From contig NZ_CP108414.1 of NCBI RefSeq assembly GCF_035978755.1, positions 2,976,001-3,040,000 of the forward strand: 64,000 nt of DNA. Reading direction: 5' to 3'. Below the pieces are notes generated by a model. That model saw only the letters and a program-made list of their open reading frames with translations, was not told where the DNA came from and searched no databases. Source of the DNA: Streptomyces sp. NBC_01298. Lineage in GTDB: Bacteria; Actinomycetota; Actinomycetes; Streptomycetales; Streptomycetaceae. Shown here piece after piece: positions 2,936 through 16,797 of the stretch. The position numbers were made by a program, and so were the translations under genes. Each line of letters starts with the position of its first letter. Positions within the stretch are counted from its first letter, which is position 1.

Positions 2936-5900
2936 ATGAGGCCATCTTCTTCATCACCCGACCGCACGCCGGGGGCCCTCCGGCGTCGGCGGGCATCCGC
3001 GGCCGCGCTGCTGCCCCTGGCCGGCGCCGTCGTGCTGGCCCTCGGGGCCGGGTCGATCACCGCCCCGGAAGCCTTCGCGGCCGGCTCATCGAGCCCCGCG
3101 CCGAAGCCCGCGTCCCGCGCCGAGGCCGGGCCCACCGCCGAGCAGAAGGCCGTGGAAGCCGCGCTGGCCGAGGCCAAGCGCACGGGCAAGCCGGTGGCGG
3201 TAGAGCTTCTGACCGCTGCCGACTCGCAGACGTTCGCCAACCCCGGCGGCACCCTCACGATGGACGCCACGGCCGCTCCGGAGCGGGTGAAGCAGGCGAA
3301 CGGGTCGTGGAAGGCGATCGACACCACCCTCCGCGCGAACGCCGACGGGACCATATCCCCGGCGGTCGTTCCCTCCCCGTTGAGCATCTCCGGCGGCGGC
3401 AGCGGGCCGATGGCGACGATGACCACGGCCGACGGCAAGAAGCTGGCCTTCAAGACGCCCTTCAAGCTCCCCGAGCCGGTCCTCGAAGGCAACGACGCGC
3501 TCTACAAGAACGTCCTGCCCGACGTCGATCTGCGGCTGACCGCCACCCAGTTGGGCGGCTGGAGCCAGGTCCTGATCGTCCGCACCGCGCAGGCCGCCGC
3601 GAACCCGGCGCTGAAGAAGATCCGCCTCGGTGTGGACGCCCCCGGCCTGAAGACCACCGTCGACGCCGCGGGCAACATCAGCTTCGACGACGCCCAGGGC
3701 AAGGCCCGATTCACCAGCCCCACCTCCTTCATGTGGGACTCCACCAAGACGGCCCTGCCCGAGGCCGCCGCCCCGAAGGGCGGCGCGAAGAGCGGCAAGT
3801 CCGCGGGCGTCAGCGGCGCGGACACCGCCCCGCCGGCGGCGCCGGCCGCCGCCGACCGGGTCATCTCCTCCACCCCCGACGGCCCCGGCGACACCGCCCG
3901 CGTCAAGCCCATCGGCGTCAAGGCCGACGCCACCGGCATCGACCTGATCCCCGACACCTCCCTCCTCGGGCAGGGCACCGGCCCCTGGTACATCGACCCG
4001 GGCGTCAACCCGTCGGCCGACAACACCACCCGTGCCTGGTCGCAGGTCCAGGAGGCGTACCCCGACACCAACGAGTTCAACGGCACCAGCAGTGGTCAGG
4101 ACACCCCCGCCGCCGGCTACTGCGGCTACTCGACCTGCACCCGCAAGGGCCGCGAGCGCGCGTACTTCCAGGTCGGGATCAATTCGACGATCTACGGCAC
4201 CGAGGTCATCGACGCCCGGCTCCGCGCCACCGTCGTCTCCTCCTCCAGCCCCGGCACGGCCACCCCGATGGGCCTCTACCAGACCGGCCCCATCAACAAC
4301 CCCACCAGCTGGAACAACCAGCCCTGCGACAAGAACTCGCGCATGGGCGGCGGTTGCGTGAAGATCGGCGGCATCAACATCTCGGGAACGGGCGAAGTCC
4401 AGTACGACGTCACCACCCAGGTGCGCAACGCCGCCCGCGACCGCTGGCCCCACTTCACGTTCGGCTTCGCGCCGGACGACGAAGGCAACATGTACTACCG
4501 CCAGCGGTTCGGCAACACCCCGCACGTCTCGGTCACGTACGACATCCGCCCCACCATCGGCAACCTCCGCACCAGCCCCACCCCCGGCTTCGCCGCCACC
4601 GGCACCTACGCGGCCTGCCGCACCGCCGGCGCCGTGAACGCTTGGGACAACCCGGGCTGGATCGGCCTCAATTCCGACATCTCGGTGACCGTCGCCACCC
4701 ACTCGCCCACCGGTCGCCAGCTCCAGACGAACTTCGCGCTCGTGGACGAGGACGACAACGGCAGCGCCCAGTACGTCAACACGGGCTGGAACAGCTCTTC
4801 CGGTGATGTCACCGCCGGCTTCGGCGCGCTGAAGGACGGGCACAAGTACTACTGGTACTCGAACACGCAGGACGACACCCTGTGGAGCCCCGACAGCGAA
4901 CGCTGCTACTTCCTCGTCGACCGGACCTCGCCCTCCGCGTCGGTGACCTCGACCGACTTCCCGCTCTCCGGCACCACCGGGGCCCACCCCAAGCGGGTCG
5001 GCGAAGAGGGCACCTTCACCCTCGCCGGAGCGGACGACGCCCCCGCCGGCGGCGGCACCCGCAGCTCGGGCATCGCCTGCGCCCGGTGGACCACGGACCC
5101 GGTGAAGGCCGCCTCCGACTGGAACTGCACCGACTCCGACACCCGGATCATCAAGACCTTCACCAACGGCAAGGCAACCGTGAAGTTCACCCCGCAGGCC
5201 TGGGGCACCAACTACCTCTACCTGCAGACGCAGGACAACGCGGGCAACATGTCCCAGCCCGTCGCCCACAGCTTCTACGTCCCGTCGAACCCGAACAGCC
5301 CCGCGCCGATCTTCGGCGACATCAACGGTGACAAGAAGGCCGACGTCGTCCTCGCCGACGCCGCCGGCAACATCCGCCAGATCAACGGCGGCGGCGACCC
5401 CGCCACCTCGCCCGTGGCCCTCGCCCGCTCCAGCGTGAGCGGCAACGGCTGGAACGGCGTCCAGCTCACCCACCGCGGCAGCCTCGGCAACAAGAACGTC
5501 GACGACCTCCTGGCGCACGAACCGGGCAAGCCCAACCTCTACGCCTTCACCAACAACAGCACCGGCCTCGTCGACGGCCAGGCACCCATCGGCATCACCA
5601 AGCCCGGCTCCTGCGCCACCGCCGACTTCACCCCCCTCGACTGCGCCGCCCACGGGTTCAGCACCACCAACTGGACCAACGTCACCCAGATCGCCGCCTA
5701 CGGTTCCGTCACCGGTGACAGCAAGCCCGGCGGCGACATCAACCTGCCGCAGACCTCGCTCCTGTTCGTGGAGAACGGGCGCCTCTGGCTGGGCGTACCG
5801 GGTGCCACCAACCAGCTGGACTCCCCCGCGATCCTGCTCTCCGCCAACGACACCAAGTGGGACGGCTACGAGCTGCTCACCCCGGGCCGCGCCAAGGGCA

Positions 5901-7309
5901 CCGACTTCCCGACGCTGTGGGCCCGCAACAAGACCGACGGCGGCACCCTGCACACCTTCGGCATCACGGGCACCGCGGACGCGCCCGTCCTCACCGGCTT
6001 CACCGACCCCGCCGCCGGCCTCATCACCGGCAAGATCGACCCCGCCCGCTACCCGAAGGTCGGCTCCGACGGCGACCTCACCGGCGACAAGATCCCCGAC
6101 CTCTGGGCCGTGGACAAGGAGCAGCAGCTCGTCGCCTTCAACGGCCTCGGCACCGCCCCCAACGGCACATCGGTCCTCTACCCCACCGTCACCGGCATCG
6201 CCCCCGCCTTCACCCTCCAGGGCAACCTCAACACCCCGGCCTTCCAGTGGAAGCTGACCGCTGCGGCCGCCGGCAGGACGCCGAGCGCCGCCGGAAACAA
6301 GTTCCCCGCCTCCGTCGCGGGCGGCGTCACCTTCCCCGCCGCCGAGACCATCGAAGGCCGCAGCACCGCCTACGCGGCGTTCAACGGCGCGCAGGCGGCC
6401 ATCACCGCCACCGGCGCCTCCCTCGACACCCGCAAGAGCTTCACCATCAGCACCTGGGCCAAGTCCGGCCCGGCCGGCGGCATCGTCGCCAGCCAGGACA
6501 ACACCCGCAACAGCGCCTTCACCCTCTACGCCGACCCGGCCACCACCTCGTGGCGGTTCGCCCTGGCCAAGGGCGACGTGGACGGCTGGTCGTACGACTG
6601 GTCCGACAACGCCAACGACGCGGCCCGGTTCCATGCGAACACCTGGACCCGCCTGACCGCCGTCTACAACGCCGAGACCGGCTTGATGAGCCTGTACGTC
6701 AACGGCGTCCTCGCCGCGAGCGGCAACCACGCGGCCGCCACCGGCTCGGCCCCGACCGGACCGCTGGTCCTAGGCCGCTACAAGGTCAACGGGCAGCCGG
6801 ACTACTTCGTCGACTTCGTCGGCGGCATCAGCAACTTCGCCGCCTTCCCCTACGCGGCCGCCCCCACCGCCACCAGCGCGACCACCAAGATCGCGCTGGC
6901 CTCCACCGGCACCAAGTGCGCGGACCTGGCGTCCGACGGCAACACGGTGCAGATCTGGGACTGCAACGAGATCGGTGGCGGACTCGCCCAGCAGTTCGAG
7001 GTCCGGGCCGACGGCACCGTGCGCATCCAGGGCAAGTGCGTGGACGCCAAGGACGCCGGTACCGGCAACGGCACGCCGGTCCAGGCCGTCGACTGCCACA
7101 ACCACCCGGCGCAGCAGTTCCTGGCCCGCGCCGACGGCAGCCTCCACAACCCGGTCTCCGGTCGCTGCCTCGACCTGAACCGCGGTGACACGACGAACGG
7201 GGTCCAGCTCCAGCTCTGGGACTGCAACCGGACCGCCGCGCAGCGCTGGTCCGTCACCGCCCTGGCCACCGCGACGCTGCCGCTGCCGAGTTACGACGCG
7301 GCAGCTTGA
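2936..7309 (+). CDS. Secreted LamG and ricin-lectin domain protein
   Basis: A 1457-residue exported protein. Residues 1-48 are a long signal peptide with a run of arginines, a hydrophobic core and an AFA cleavage site. Residues about 70-560 are a beta-rich region rich in Asn and Gly. FG-GAP/VCBS-like segments (FGDINGDKKADVV near 790, DLTGDKIPDLW near 1046) follow, then a LamG-type jelly roll at about 1142-1309 and a ricin B trefoil at about 1315-1450 with three Cys- and QxF/QxW-type subrepeats. The last two are carbohydrate-binding folds, so a surface or glycan-binding role is inferred. ATG 2936 has GAGGA nine bases upstream; GTG 2930 would have only three. No catalytic domain was recognised. 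Its divergent partner is an RHS protein, a pairing that suggests a shared job at the cell surface. Confidence 0.85.
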   Translation: MRPSSSSPDRTPGALRRRRASAAALLPLAGAVVLALGAGSITAPEAFAAGSSSPAPKPASRAEAGPTAEQKAVEAALAEAKRTGKPVAVELLTAADSQTFANPGGTLTMDATAAPERVKQANGSWKAIDTTLRANADGTISPAVVPSPLSISGGGSGPMATMTTADGKKLAFKTPFKLPEPVLEGNDALYKNVLPDVDLRLTATQLGGWSQVLIVRTAQAAANPALKKIRLGVDAPGLKTTVDAAGNISFDDAQGKARFTSPTSFMWDSTKTALPEAAAPKGGAKSGKSAGVSGADTAPPAAPAAADRVISSTPDGPGDTARVKPIGVKADATGIDLIPDTSLLGQGTGPWYIDPGVNPSADNTTRAWSQVQEAYPDTNEFNGTSSGQDTPAAGYCGYSTCTRKGRERAYFQVGINSTIYGTEVIDARLRATVVSSSSPGTATPMGLYQTGPINNPTSWNNQPCDKNSRMGGGCVKIGGINISGTGEVQYDVTTQVRNAARDRWPHFTFGFAPDDEGNMYYRQRFGNTPHVSVTYDIRPTIGNLRTSPTPGFAATGTYAACRTAGAVNAWDNPGWIGLNSDISVTVATHSPTGRQLQTNFALVDEDDNGSAQYVNTGWNSSSGDVTAGFGALKDGHKYYWYSNTQDDTLWSPDSERCYFLVDRTSPSASVTSTDFPLSGTTGAHPKRVGEEGTFTLAGADDAPAGGGTRSSGIACARWTTDPVKAASDWNCTDSDTRIIKTFTNGKATVKFTPQAWGTNYLYLQTQDNAGNMSQPVAHSFYVPSNPNSPAPIFGDINGDKKADVVLADAAGNIRQINGGGDPATSPVALARSSVSGNGWNGVQLTHRGSLGNKNVDDLLAHEPGKPNLYAFTNNSTGLVDGQAPIGITKPGSCATADFTPLDCAAHGFSTTNWTNVTQIAAYGSVTGDSKPGGDINLPQTSLLFVENGRLWLGVPGATNQLDSPAILLSANDTKWDGYELLTPGRAKGTDFPTLWARNKTDGGTLHTFGITGTADAPVLTGFTDPAAGLITGKIDPARYPKVGSDGDLTGDKIPDLWAVDKEQQLVAFNGLGTAPNGTSVLYPTVTGIAPAFTLQGNLNTPAFQWKLTAAAAGRTPSAAGNKFPASVAGGVTFPAAETIEGRSTAYAAFNGAQAAITATGASLDTRKSFTISTWAKSGPAGGIVASQDNTRNSAFTLYADPATTSWRFALAKGDVDGWSYDWSDNANDAARFHANTWTRLTAVYNAETGLMSLYVNGVLAASGNHAAATGSAPTGPLVLGRYKVNGQPDYFVDFVGGISNFAAFPYAAAPTATSATTKIALASTGTKCADLASDGNTVQIWDCNEIGGGLAQQFEVRADGTVRIQGKCVDAKDAGTGNGTPVQAVDCHNHPAQQFLARADGSLHNPVSGRCLDLNRGDTTNGVQLQLWDCNRTAAQRWSVTALATATLPLPSYDAAA

Positions 7310-9904: not shown

Positions 9905-10023
9905 CCGTCCAGCCTCGCCGGGGCCCGGCGCGGCCGCCACCGGACCGCATCCGTCCGGGGCCGCCGCGGCCCGGCCCGACGGGGGCGGGTTTGTGACCGG
10001 TCCGTGCGGCCGACTAGGGTCAG

Positions 10024-10191
10024 CGGGCCTTGGTGTTCGGGAAACCGGTGGGAAACCGGTGCGGCCCTCGCCACTGTGATCGGGAAGTCCGGCTCCACTC
10101 CTGCGGGAAAGCCACTGGGCTGCGCGGGAGGTTCCGCGCTGCCCGGGAAGGCGGGGCATGGACGTCAACCCGTGAGCCAGGAGACCGGCCG
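10024..10191 (+). ncRNA. Cobalamin (AdoCbl) riboswitch upstream of cbiMNQO
   Basis: The leader of cbiM holds the conserved cobalamin-riboswitch core: GAAAGCCACTGGGC at 10107-10120, GGGAAGG at 10144-10150, and the B12 box GAGCCAGGAGACCGGCC at 10174-10190, with a GGCC closing element at 10026 that can pair with GGCC at 10187. The order and spacing match the family. The expected effect is to lower expression of the cobalt transporter when coenzyme B12 is plentiful. Confidence 0.92.
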
Positions 10192-10236
10192 GGGCGCGTT
10201 GTCCATCCACGAGGTGCTGGAGAGGTCTCCCTACCC

Positions 10237-14247: not shown

Positions 14248-14460
14248 TTACTTGTTCAGGGAGGCCCAGAACTCGTCGAAGCTCAGCAGGCCGTCGTCGT
14301 TCGAGTCCTTCGCGGCGATCACGGCCTCCGCGACCGGGCCGGTGACGAACGGGTCGCCCATCGCCGCCATCGCCGAACGGAACTCGTCGGCCGTCACGAA
14401 GCCGTCACCGTTCACGTCGAACTTGCCGAACGTCGTCCGTGCGCTCTCGATGTCCGCCAC
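14248..14460 (-). CDS. Small EF-hand calcium-binding protein
   Basis: A 70-residue calmodulin-like protein with two EF-hand loops: residues 15-26 (DVNGDGFVTADE) and 52-63 (DSNDDGLLSFDE), both with acidic residues at positions 1, 3/5 and 12. It is cytoplasmic and resembles the small Cab-type proteins of Streptomyces, proposed as Ca2+ buffers or sensors. GTG 14460 is chosen because GAAGGGG lies eight bases upstream; GTG 14469 would overlap that site. Confidence 0.9.
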   Translation of the reverse strand: MADIESARTTFGKFDVNGDGFVTADEFRSAMAAMGDPFVTGPVAEAVIAAKDSNDDGLLSFDEFWASLNK

Positions 14461-14469
14461 TGGGTCCAC

Positions 14470-14714
14470 CCCTTCTTGGTGCTTGTTGACCGGCTCAGGG
14501 TAGCGGCATGCCCGCCCCCCTCACGCCCCGGGTCCCGTTCGAGCGGCAGATAGAAATTCAATTACTCTTCCGTAGTGCGGAAGCGATAATTCCAGCCAAC
14601 AATTCAAGCCCCCACTTGTCACGCTCCGGGACCACCGCATAACGTAGCGACATTGCCGCCACACCGGGAGCGCAGGGCTCCCAGGGACAAGCGGCAACAA
14701 GGGCGATCACACAG
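14470..14714. promoter_or_regulatory. AT-richer leader of the cyclodipeptide synthase operon
   Basis: Divergent spacer between the EF-hand and cyclodipeptide synthase genes. Around 14549-14610 the sequence is conspicuously A/T-rich. Short inverted repeats are visible: CTTCCG/CGGAAG at 14567-14583 and GGGAGC/GCTCCC at 14666-14682. Either could be an operator or leader hairpin; neither is proven. Confidence 0.35.
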
Positions 14715-15521
14715 GTGACGATCACAGCTGACGCATCATTCGAAGTTCTGCCCTTCACCCGCACTTGCCACCACATCTGGGAAGACGGCGACCATGTGCT
14801 CATCGGAGTGAGCCCCGGAAACAGCTACTTCAGCTCCGAGCGCATAACCAGCCTCTCCCGGTGGGCCACGACCCGCTTCGCACAGGTCGACTTCGTCTAC
14901 GCAGACCTCCACGTGGACAGGATGTTCGCCGCCTTCGGCTACACCCGGGAACACGCGGAGAAGCGTGCGACAAAGGAAATCAAGGCAGTCCGGCGAAGAA
15001 TTCTGAAGGGTGTGGAGGAATCAGGACCTCCGCACGCCGAGATCCGAGTGAGGGCACTGTCGGAGTTCCAGGAGAACCCCGTCTACCAACTTCTGCACCG
15101 GCGCGTGCTCCATTTCCTGGAGACCGACGACAAATTCCGCAAGGGCTGCGAGGAAATGGCCCTGCATTTTGTCGGTTCCAAGTTGCGGGAAGGTGAATCA
15201 ATCACCGACGCACAGTTGCAGGTGTGTTTCGATTACATGGCGGCCGAGCTGCCGTTCTTCATCGACACCCCGAGCATTCTCGACGTGCCGTCCTCCGTGG
15301 CGGCCTACCACGTCAAGATGCCGATGACCGACCTCCTGTTCGCGCGCGGTGGGGGACTGCGCGCGACGAGGAACCAGGCATACGCCGTGGTGCGCCCCGA
15401 GCCGGACGAAAAGGCGCAGAGCAACCCGAACCACCCGACCACGAGCACGAGCACGAGCACGCACGCGAACGCGCACACCGCACCAACCGAAGGGACCGTC
15501 GATGAGCGTCGAGCAGCTTGA
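14715..15521 (+). CDS. tRNA-dependent cyclodipeptide synthase, NYH type
   Basis: A 268-residue enzyme that joins two amino acids from aminoacyl-tRNAs into a 2,5-diketopiperazine. The family signature HVLIGVSPGNSYF (27-39) supplies the catalytic Ser33 (equivalent to AlbC Ser37) and Asn36. The second signature YMAAELPFF places Tyr174 and Glu178 (AlbC Tyr178/Glu182), and AAYH gives Tyr198-His199, so Asn/Tyr/His place it in the NYH subfamily. A basic helix near 83-98 (KRATKEIKAVRRR) fits tRNA binding. The last about 35 residues are an unusual Thr/Ser/His low-complexity tail. The start is GTG, with only a weak AAGG upstream. It overlaps the P450 gene by 20 bases, so the two are translated together. 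The amino acids used cannot be read reliably; the CYP121-like partner makes an aromatic product such as cyclo(Tyr-Tyr) the first guess. Confidence 0.93.
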   Translation: MTITADASFEVLPFTRTCHHIWEDGDHVLIGVSPGNSYFSSERITSLSRWATTRFAQVDFVYADLHVDRMFAAFGYTREHAEKRATKEIKAVRRRILKGVEESGPPHAEIRVRALSEFQENPVYQLLHRRVLHFLETDDKFRKGCEEMALHFVGSKLREGESITDAQLQVCFDYMAAELPFFIDTPSILDVPSSVAAYHVKMPMTDLLFARGGGLRATRNQAYAVVRPEPDEKAQSNPNHPTTSTSTSTHANAHTAPTEGTVDERRAA

Positions 15522-16740
15522 GGGCACCGGGCAGACCACCGAGCCCCTCATCGACTTCCCGCTCTCGCGGCGCGGCGACGTGCTCCCCGAGGAGTGCACC
15601 TGGCTGCGCGAGAAGGCGCCCGTCGCGAAGGTCCGTACCCTCACCGGGGATCCGGCCTGGCTGGTGAGCAGCTACGCGCTGGCCAAGCAGGTGCTGGAGG
15701 ACGAACGCTTCAGCCTCAAGGACACGGCGGGCGACGGCGTCCCGCGCCAGTACGCGCTGACGATCCCGCCCGAGGTCGTCAACAACATGGGCAACATCAA
15801 CAGCGCCGGACTGCGCAACGCGGTCATGAAGGCGCTCAACCCGCGACAGAAGGGCCTGCAGGACCGGCTGCGCGCCACGGCCGGCGAGCTCATAGACCAG
15901 CTCCTCGCCGAAGGGGGGCCCGCCGACCTGCGGGCCGGCTTCGCCGATCCCTTCTCTGCGGCCATGCACTGCCAGGTGCTGGGCGTGCCGTTCGAGGACT
16001 GGCGCCGGCTGATGTCGGGGCTGGACGTCGCGTTCATGACCGCGCGCGAACCGTTCGCCGACTCCGCGCTCAACTGGTACAAGGACGTCGGCTACTTCGA
16101 GCAGCAGCTGAAGGCGCAGCTGGCGCTTCCTGCCGAGGAGCGTACGGGGCTCCTCGGCAAGTTCGCCGAGCTGAAGGAGGCGGACCAGGAGTCGGCGCAC
16201 CTGACCGACGACATGTTCGCCACCGTCGCCGTCTCCCTCTTCGGGGCCGGCGCCGTCTCCACCTCCGCCTTCCTGACCCTGGCGGTCCTGGCGCTGCTGC
16301 AGAAGCCCGAGCTGATCGGGTACCTGCGCAAGCATCCGGAGCGCATGGGGAAGGCCGTGGACGAGCTGCTCCGCTGGAACCTGTCCGTCGGCGACGGCCT
16401 GCCGCGCATCGCGATGGCGGACATCCAGGTCGGGGACGTGCTGGTCAAGGAGGGCGAGCTGGTGCTCGTCCTGCTGGAGGGGGCCAACTTCGACCCCGAG
16501 GCCTTCGAGAACCCCGACGAGCTGGACCTGGAGCGCGAGAGCCCCAACGCCAACCTCGCCTTCGGCGCCGGCCGGCACTTCTGCCCGGCTTCCGCGCTGG
16601 GCCGGGCGCACGCCGAGATCGCGCTGGAGGTGCTGGTCGAGCGGCTGCCCGAGCTGCGTCTCGCGGTGCCGGCGGAGAACCTCGTGTGGCGGACCGGCTT
16701 CATCAAGCGCCTTCCCGAGCGGCTCCCCGTCGCCTGGTGA
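15502..16740 (+). CDS. Cytochrome P450 of the CYP121 (mycocyclosin synthase) type
   Basis: A 412-residue P450 that should oxidise the cyclodipeptide made by the upstream gene. Haem-binding FGAGRHFCPA places the thiolate at Cys361; the I-helix segment is LFGAGAVSTSAF and the ExxR-type motif is EVDELLRW-like (DELLRWN). From memory it is strikingly similar to Mycobacterium tuberculosis CYP121: PPEVVNNMGNI, VAFM, NWYKD and GDVLVKEGELVLVLLEGANFDP align. Equivalents of CYP121 Asn85, Phe168, Trp182 and Ser237 are kept, but the Gln385-Arg386 pair appears as Ile401-Lys402. Related CDPS-linked P450s in Streptomyces also attach guanine or couple aromatic rings, so the reaction is open. An AGGGA site precedes the ATG. 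Confidence 0.93.
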   Translation: MSVEQLEGTGQTTEPLIDFPLSRRGDVLPEECTWLREKAPVAKVRTLTGDPAWLVSSYALAKQVLEDERFSLKDTAGDGVPRQYALTIPPEVVNNMGNINSAGLRNAVMKALNPRQKGLQDRLRATAGELIDQLLAEGGPADLRAGFADPFSAAMHCQVLGVPFEDWRRLMSGLDVAFMTAREPFADSALNWYKDVGYFEQQLKAQLALPAEERTGLLGKFAELKEADQESAHLTDDMFATVAVSLFGAGAVSTSAFLTLAVLALLQKPELIGYLRKHPERMGKAVDELLRWNLSVGDGLPRIAMADIQVGDVLVKEGELVLVLLEGANFDPEAFENPDELDLERESPNANLAFGAGRHFCPASALGRAHAEIALEVLVERLPELRLAVPAENLVWRTGFIKRLPERLPVAW

Positions 16741-16764: not shown

Positions 16765-16797
16765 GTGCCCCGGGAGCTGTGCGAGCTCCCGGGGCAC
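16765..16797. terminator. Perfect 14-bp hairpin between convergent genes
   Basis: Arms 16765-16778 (GTGCCCCGGGAGCT) and 16784-16797, loop GTGCG. It ends the cyclodipeptide operon and probably also the convergent propeller-lipoprotein transcript. Confidence 0.85.

Follow-up and report, generated by a model that had tools for sequence, protein, structure and literature searches.

A predicted guanitrypmycin-type cyclodipeptide synthase-P450 operon in Streptomyces sp. NBC_01298 and a conserved, covarying leader element ahead of it

Clusters that pair a cyclodipeptide synthase (CDPS) with a cytochrome P450 have been described from both Streptomyces and Kitasatospora. The gut clusters of Streptomyces lavendulae NRRL B-2774, S. 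xanthophaeus NRRL B-5414, S. purpureus and Kitasatospora azatica are of this kind (PMC7954767, PMC13122648), and in these clusters and in ptm of K. mediocidica cyclo(Trp-Trp) (cWW) is coupled to guanine and hypoxanthine (PMC7954767, PMC13122648). The gut products, cWW joined to hypoxanthine or guanine, are the guanitrypmycins, and gym clusters lead to mycocyclosin and guatyromycines (PMC10092475). Here, we analysed a stretch of 64,000 nucleotides (nt) of the Streptomyces sp. NBC_01298 chromosome (the window; NZ_CP108414.1, positions 2,976,001 to 3,040,000), in which a CDPS-P450 operon stands behind a conserved leader element of 43 nt (Table 1). We consider it probable that this is a gut-type operon whose enzymes would couple cWW to hypoxanthine or guanine, and that it is headed by a covarying element, likely an RNA, which likely sets the amount of synthase. 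The cassette would thus be a further member of the already known guanitrypmycin pathways, with a predicted product, and the leader is its unexpected part.

Compared with the described systems, the locus is closest to the gut5414, gut2774 and gut5737 clusters, with which it has in common the CDPS-P450 pair, a CDPS with a tryptophan-type (W) pocket and the downstream neighbours. Unlike for the window locus, no leader RNA is described for the gut clusters in PMC13122648 or in the excerpts of PMC7954767 and PMC10092475. For ptm (PtmB, PDB 8YXT) and for gut24283 of K. azatica, the reported chemistry is the cWW coupling to guanine or hypoxanthine that is predicted here. The ptm cluster also has the leader element ahead of it, but none of the window's neighbours was found within the surrounding 13 kb, and the element is set apart from the synthase by a small open reading frame (ORF) and about 450 nt. 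The gym system (GymB1, PDB 8Q6Z) and the CYP121/Rv2275 pair show the same CDPS-P450 layout with a related P450, and the same leader element precedes the gym cassettes of Streptomyces; these systems differ from the window in a pocket for cyclo(Tyr-Tyr) (cYY), VG(I/V)TMLFN, and in a separate P450 clade.

The synthase is an intact member of the NYH family. It matches the family models PF16715 and TIGR04539 (Pfam CDPS, E 9.3e-87), and the alignment bears out the six residues that an earlier note on this DNA, made from the letters alone, had named (Ser33, Asn36, Tyr174, Glu178, Tyr198 and His199), which are the full catalytic set. For the substrate pockets, positions were derived from AlbC numbering, by which several of the motifs printed in PMC5816076 were reproduced exactly. 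Pocket P1 reads LGVALFFA, a tryptophan-type motif, and its position 8 is Ala196; an Asn at this position (N251 of Rv2275, and also in the cYY group) is described as essential for tyrosyl recognition (PMC5816076). Table 2 of the same paper lists the P1/P2 motifs of characterised CDPSs and includes LGVALFFA/MLHGVMP as a Trp/Trp row with the enzyme unnamed. The reading of pocket P2 of the window depends on the register: the one that returns the cYY motifs gives MHFSVMP, and a second one, displaced by one at three places, gives MLHGVMP; in the latter, which was picked with the printed table in view, P1 and P2 together equal the Trp/Trp row at 15 of 15 positions. S. lavendulae CCM 3239 and S. xanthophaeus NRRL B-5414 each have a CDPS with the pocket letters of the window unchanged. 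P1 is LGVALFF(A/S) at the S. lavendulae, S. purpureus and NRRL B-24484 loci, and for CDPSs from S. lavendulae, S. purpureus and NRRL B-24484 cWW has been given as the chief or sole product, with shares of 62, 100 and 73.2%, respectively (PMC5816076). From these residues, the enzyme is predicted to be a cWW synthase.

The P450 (Pfam p450, E 2e-18) resembles CYP121 along its whole length, as the earlier note had stated, with residues 13-412 aligned and 55% identical, and other relatives are closer. Its solved relatives are, best first, 9o4d (649 bits), PtmB (8yxt, 566), GymB1 (8q6z, 491) and CYP121 (1n40, 476); 9o4d is the S. purpureus P450 at 99.7% identity, PtmB is the K. mediocidica P450 (locus L096 of our collection, 100%), and GymB1 is the P450 of the second cassette of S. 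flavidovirens (100%). Among named P450s, identity to the window protein is 93% for S. xanthophaeus NRRL B-5414, 92% for S. lavendulae CCM 3239 (a strain other than the studied NRRL B-2774), 74% for S. purpureus JCM 3172, 66% for PtmB and 58% for GymB1. Between the window and NRRL B-5414 the CDPSs are 87% identical, and the P450s agree at all 30 compared active-site or heme-site positions of CYP121 (positions from PMC11084333). In the NRRL B-5414 genome, searches for a CDPS (E <=1e-10) and for a P450 of this group (E <=1e-90) each returned a single hit, and both hits are orthologues of the window genes. A tree was built from 83 P450s by a quick search with SH-aLRT support, from a collection in which 119 P450s scored above 350 bits; its rows were the named loci, L002, L007-L020, L049-L053 and L126 (if long enough), five solved chains and the window, with duplicates used once. 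CYP121, GymB1, 8q6x and 18 cassettes with a tyrosine-type (Y) pocket fall on one side of a branch with support 100, and the window and 54 W-pocket cassettes fall on the opposite side, as do the S. purpureus P450 and PtmB. Over 72 cassettes, the W or Y state of the partner synthase changes once on this tree. In the predicted pathway, the synthase would take two Trp-tRNAs, and the P450, translated from the overlapping start, would oxidise the indole and join the nucleobase. This prediction is made because a tryptophan-type pocket is found together with a P450 that is 93% identical to that of a guanitrypmycin strain and lies outside the CYP121/GymB1 clade.

The earlier note had brought up cYY and mycocyclosin, and a cassette of the CYP121/gym type, in which the synthase makes cYY and the P450 couples both rings, has some evidence in its favour. 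Rv2275, a cYY enzyme, is the best solved relative of the synthase (219 bits; AlbC 169), the P450 aligns with CYP121 over nearly the full length, and the NCBIfam cyclodityrosine synthase model NF052540 gives 274 bits, although this is below its cut-off of 300. We regard this reading as highly unlikely and rejected it on the pocket residues and the P450 clade: Ala196 replaces the Asn of pocket P1, the motif is LGVALFFA rather than VG(I/V)TMLFN, and the P450 falls outside the clade of CYP121, GymB1 and 8q6x. A separate Y-pocket cassette, with a P450 87% identical to GymB1, is also present in the same genome. The comparison with Tyr-specific synthases and the phylogenetic placement of the P450, both of which the note had proposed as checks, turned out against tyrosine, a reading that would have pointed chemists to the wrong product. 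The guanine addition that the note had listed as an option agrees with the orthologous guanitrypmycin cassette, and the product is less obscure than it had been thought, the NRRL B-5414 orthologues being from a guanitrypmycin-making strain. Dimerisation of a cyclo(Trp-X) by the P450, in place of nucleobase addition, is very unlikely. The CDPS-linked P450s NascB, NasF5053 and TtpB1 are among the matches, and PMC10092475 describes how P450s of this kind dimerise Trp rings, but the scores of these three are 164-187 bits, where PtmB reaches 566 and 9o4d 649, and the dimerisation reading was rejected on this gap. Some observations weigh against the cWW and nucleobase prediction in addition to the Rv2275 match. 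P2 in the cYY-reproducing register, MHFSVMP, is absent from the table in the excerpt of PMC5816076, and the tree tool flagged long branches, CYP121 included. Moreover, PMC7954767 gives 57% identity between GutD5414 and GutD5737, whereas we measured 76% between the NRRL B-5414 and S. purpureus P450s; therefore, the main product could be a C3-3, a C3-4 or a guanine adduct.

The leader element, which the earlier note did not mention, was found by aligning 24 upstream regions, in which a block ahead of the synthase is strongly conserved. It consists of an outer stem P1, a conserved internal loop and an inner stem P2 closed by a 5-nt loop, and in the window it folds with a z of -4.26 (76-nt stretch). 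CACACC is kept in 95 of 99 leader sequences, loop positions 2 (C) and 5 (G) are identical in all 99 with position 4 variable, and the linker after P2 is of 2 nt (51 sequences) or 3 nt (48 sequences). A -10-like TANNNT begins 11 nt ahead of the core in 50 of 69 leaders, and a Shine-Dalgarno-like motif begins at core offset 47-51 in 60 of 69. The promoter-like site upstream is mostly kept in the 24 aligned regions; a stricter consensus scan listed no promoter at 14616-14645. The window contains the consensus pattern once, a second version of the pattern occurs once in the genome (a 9.7 Mb assembly of five contigs), and the covariance model finds two in the genome, one per CDPS-P450 cassette.

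Covariation was measured in a seed set of 62 of the 69 distinct leader cores, and in a held-out set of 37 of 42 distinct held-out cores, those not already among the seeds, for which the structure was fixed beforehand. Of the 49 held-out loci, L266 was lost by the motif filter, though the covariance model recovers its element in L204 (29.5 bits). In the seed set, 97.5% of cells pair, and both sides change in 5 of 11 pairs, a count that 2 of 500 shuffles reach. The 41 double-change cells compare with a shuffle mean of 12.5, with no shuffle as high and slid versions giving at most 8, and RNAalifold returned the same stems plus CC/GG. In the held-out set, 85.0% of cells pair, and 34 double-change cells were counted against 13.2 in shuffles, again with none as high and slid versions at most 3; the double changes are spread over 6 of 11 pairs. 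When each sequence was folded alone, the architecture was the same in 62 of 62 seeds and in 36 of 37 held-out sequences. Compensatory base changes, the mark of a structured cis-regulatory RNA, are thus present in the out-of-sample alignment. Several results speak against this picture: the held-out count of 6 of 11 pairs was reached by 12 of 500 shuffles, further pair types in the held-out set do not exceed shuffles (402 of 500 reach the value), and at the two outermost positions of P1 pairing is lost in 19 and 18 of 37 held-out rows, in part through a P1 rebuilt with other letters or a bulge. On the held-out set RNAalifold kept only the two inner P1 pairs, and among ten members folded with shuffles, six gave a z between -0.6 and -1.5.

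The element follows the cassettes closely. Searched with a profile, the loci of our collection yielded 133 rows (with duplicates), which lie ahead of W as well as Y cassettes. In 392 congeneric genomes, the covariance model, which was built partly from these same loci, found 122 elements (E <=0.05) in 107 genomes. At 100 of 105 CDPS places, an element lies 11-235 nt upstream of the first aligned CDPS residue on the same strand, and 100 of the 107 elements at >=43 bits precede such a CDPS; by reading, the remaining seven precede CDPS or P450 sequence, broken in six. Among the five CDPSs with no listed element, one has it at 29.5 bits, and the other four have no P450 of the group in the 4-5 kb around each. 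In this sample, the leader is near one-to-one with this type of CDPS-P450 cassette, both cWW and cYY. Because the model was partly built from the counted loci, the held-out set is the cleaner test. A wide spread over the class was rejected: in a class-wide sample, with filters under which weak matches drop out, 14 of 394 genomes and 2 of 137 genera had a hit. Several of the Kitasatospora and related clusters (L096 from 4748, L092, L094, L098 and L102) have a small ORF, starting MRNRE..AVAAACR or similarly, between the leader and the synthase, which then lies further down.

A regulatory RNA, perhaps a riboswitch, is the likely and best reading of the leader. From the predicted start, at about 14651, the transcript would have P1 at its 5' end and 2 nt ahead of the Shine-Dalgarno sequence, and the forming or opening of P1 would alter ribosome access. 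The trigger may be the binding of a ligand or a protein at the conserved CACA/GGGACU internal loop. Translational riboswitches with small aptamers at the 5' end are known, e.g. preQ1 and SAM-II. The window leader is likewise a compact structured leader beside a Shine-Dalgarno sequence; unlike them, it has no Rfam match at gathering score. The leader is well supported as a structured element; Rfam gave no match above chance level, and no CDPS leader RNA was met in a partial survey of open-licence PMC text. A bolder proposal, which we make only tentatively, sees in the leader a new class of riboswitch, belonging to Streptomyces and relatives, that would govern cWW and cYY pathways and, in a divergent form, small LuxR-type regulators by sensing a shared metabolite. 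A free purine base is suggested as the ligand because both P450 groups consume it.

The alternatives to a regulatory RNA differ in how well they account for the element. A coding sequence was rejected, since no in-frame start codon was seen by eye and the indels are not in threes. Against an RNA, the leader could be a double-stranded DNA operator for a repressor, placed just downstream of the promoter, and the dyad symmetry and the one fixed distance of the -10-like box in 50 of 69 leaders would suit it. An operator is nevertheless unlikely: the stems are nested and the conserved loops asymmetric, the linker after P2 takes two lengths in nearly equal numbers among the 99, P1 is rebuilt with different sequences and bulges, and a Shine-Dalgarno-like motif comes directly after P1 in 60 of 69. 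Of the explanations considered, a listed RNA family, ANTAR-target RNAs included, is the least probable. ANTAR targets occur commonly in actinobacteria, often overlapping the ribosome binding site; they have two stem loops with six-base loops in which A1 and G4 are fixed (PMC8164766). The leader is one nested structure with a 5-nt loop in which C2 and G5 are fixed and position 4 varies, and an ANTAR target was rejected on stem-loop number, loop size and fixed loop positions. Other listed families were rejected by the Rfam searches. At gathering score, Rfam 15 left the leader unmatched over the whole window, and the LuxR-type leaders described below likewise have no match at that score. A loose search with 361 bases of the window hit two human long RNAs at chance level (E 1.6 and 8.4), and loose searches with two distant members gave one chance-level animal RNA family each, far under gathering scores. 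The sole gathering-score match in the window is a cobalamin riboswitch elsewhere (10014-10207, plus strand, 96.7 bits).

If the leader acts as proposed, it would give a handle on the switching of these clusters, and such a natural switch, common to the cWW and cYY pathways, might serve to wake silent ones; the gut cluster of K. azatica was silent in its host under standard conditions (PMC13122648). An orphan regulatory RNA class would also be added, with a gene set that narrows the choice of ligand.

LuxR-type regulators may form a second gene set of the leader, which we treat as a lead. Weak matches to the covariance model (29.7-40.3 bits) lie directly ahead of a 115-amino-acid LuxR-type (GerE) protein. 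At 19 loci with homologues of this protein, a match is directly upstream in nine, namely six already found in the genome search and three new ones (30.5, 23.4 and 16.2 bits, the last not significant), and by eye a core is common to 14 of the 19. Folded singly, seven of eight of these leaders form the outer stem and the 5-nt-loop hairpin, the L197 leader does not, and z is below -2 in only two of eight. The divergent loci are L195, L196, L197, L200, L209-L211, L273 and L274, and several have a hairpin of their own, CCACGGGGGUC.

Table 1 Features of the operon and its leader in the window.
Feature	Position	Strand	Basis
Promoter-like site: TTGTCA (14616-14621), 18 nt, TAACGT (14640-14645)	14616-14645	+	read from sequence
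Conserved structured leader element, 43 nt, nested stems	14654-14696	+	alignment, folding, covariation
Leader stem P1	14654-14659 with 14691-14696	+	
Leader CACA	14660-14663	+	
Leader CC with GG	14664-14665 with 14684-14685	+	
Leader stem P2	14667-14671 with 14677-14681	+	
Leader 5-nt loop	14672-14676	+	
Shine-Dalgarno-like AAGGG of the synthase gene, 2 nt past P1	14699-14703	+	sequence
NYH CDPS, tryptophan-type pocket, predicted cWW synthase, GutA type (GTG start, 268 amino acids)	14715-15521	+	ORF, Pfam, pocket residues
Cytochrome P450, GutD type, predicted nucleobase-cWW coupling enzyme (ATG start, 412 amino acids)	15502-16740	+	ORF, identity, tree
Overlap of CDPS and P450 genes, 20 bases	15502-15521	+	
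Perfect 14-bp inverted repeat, 5-nt loop, between convergent genes; possible transcription end	16765-16797	n/a	
Arms of the inverted repeat	16765-16778 / 16784-16797	n/a	

The surroundings of the operon agree in part with what had been said of it. The 20-base overlap of the two genes was confirmed, and no methyltransferase or prenyltransferase occurs among the four neighbours scanned. Of the claimed perfect terminator, the perfect inverted repeat stands (z -4.36 for a 101-nt stretch) and may be a transcription end, though no T-run follows and a terminator scan did not list it. At most Streptomyces loci, the cassette occupies a single chromosomal place, followed by genes for a YncE-like propeller, a deacetylase and further proteins; these downstream neighbours are kept even at about 75% P450 identity, e.g. 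in S. purpureus. The downstream neighbours are missing from the Kitasatospora loci and from a few more (such as L091, L093, L103, L104 and L107), and the nearest named relatives at the locus are Streptomyces. Divergent from the operon, a 73-amino-acid EF-hand-like protein is encoded at 14248-14469 on the minus strand of the window, with motifs DVNGDGFVTADEF and DSNDDGLLSFDEF recognised by eye.

The second CDPS-P450 cassette of this genome (C1:1190974-1192843; L002, L023, L156) has the pocket VGITMLFN and its own copy of the leader, and with a P450 87% identical to GymB1 it is likely the mycocyclosin/guatyromycine-type cassette of the strain. A second CDPS (E <=1e-50) is held by 8 of 18 sampled genomes with a CDPS of >=82% identity, and all eight second copies have a Y pocket and a P450 at 85-88% to GymB1. 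At the same chromosomal place, L079, L080, L101, L105 and L108 (about 5700-7200) carry synthase remnants with the P450 frame intact. The dN/dS of these orphan P450s is 0.13-0.16 among L079, L080 and L108 and 0.38-0.45 for pairs with L101 or L105. Because all five genomes have a Y-pocket cassette elsewhere, the orphan P450 may act on another ring. Finally, CDPS and P450 lie in one open frame at L093:5215-7224 and L103:1155-3596, which are apparent natural fusions.

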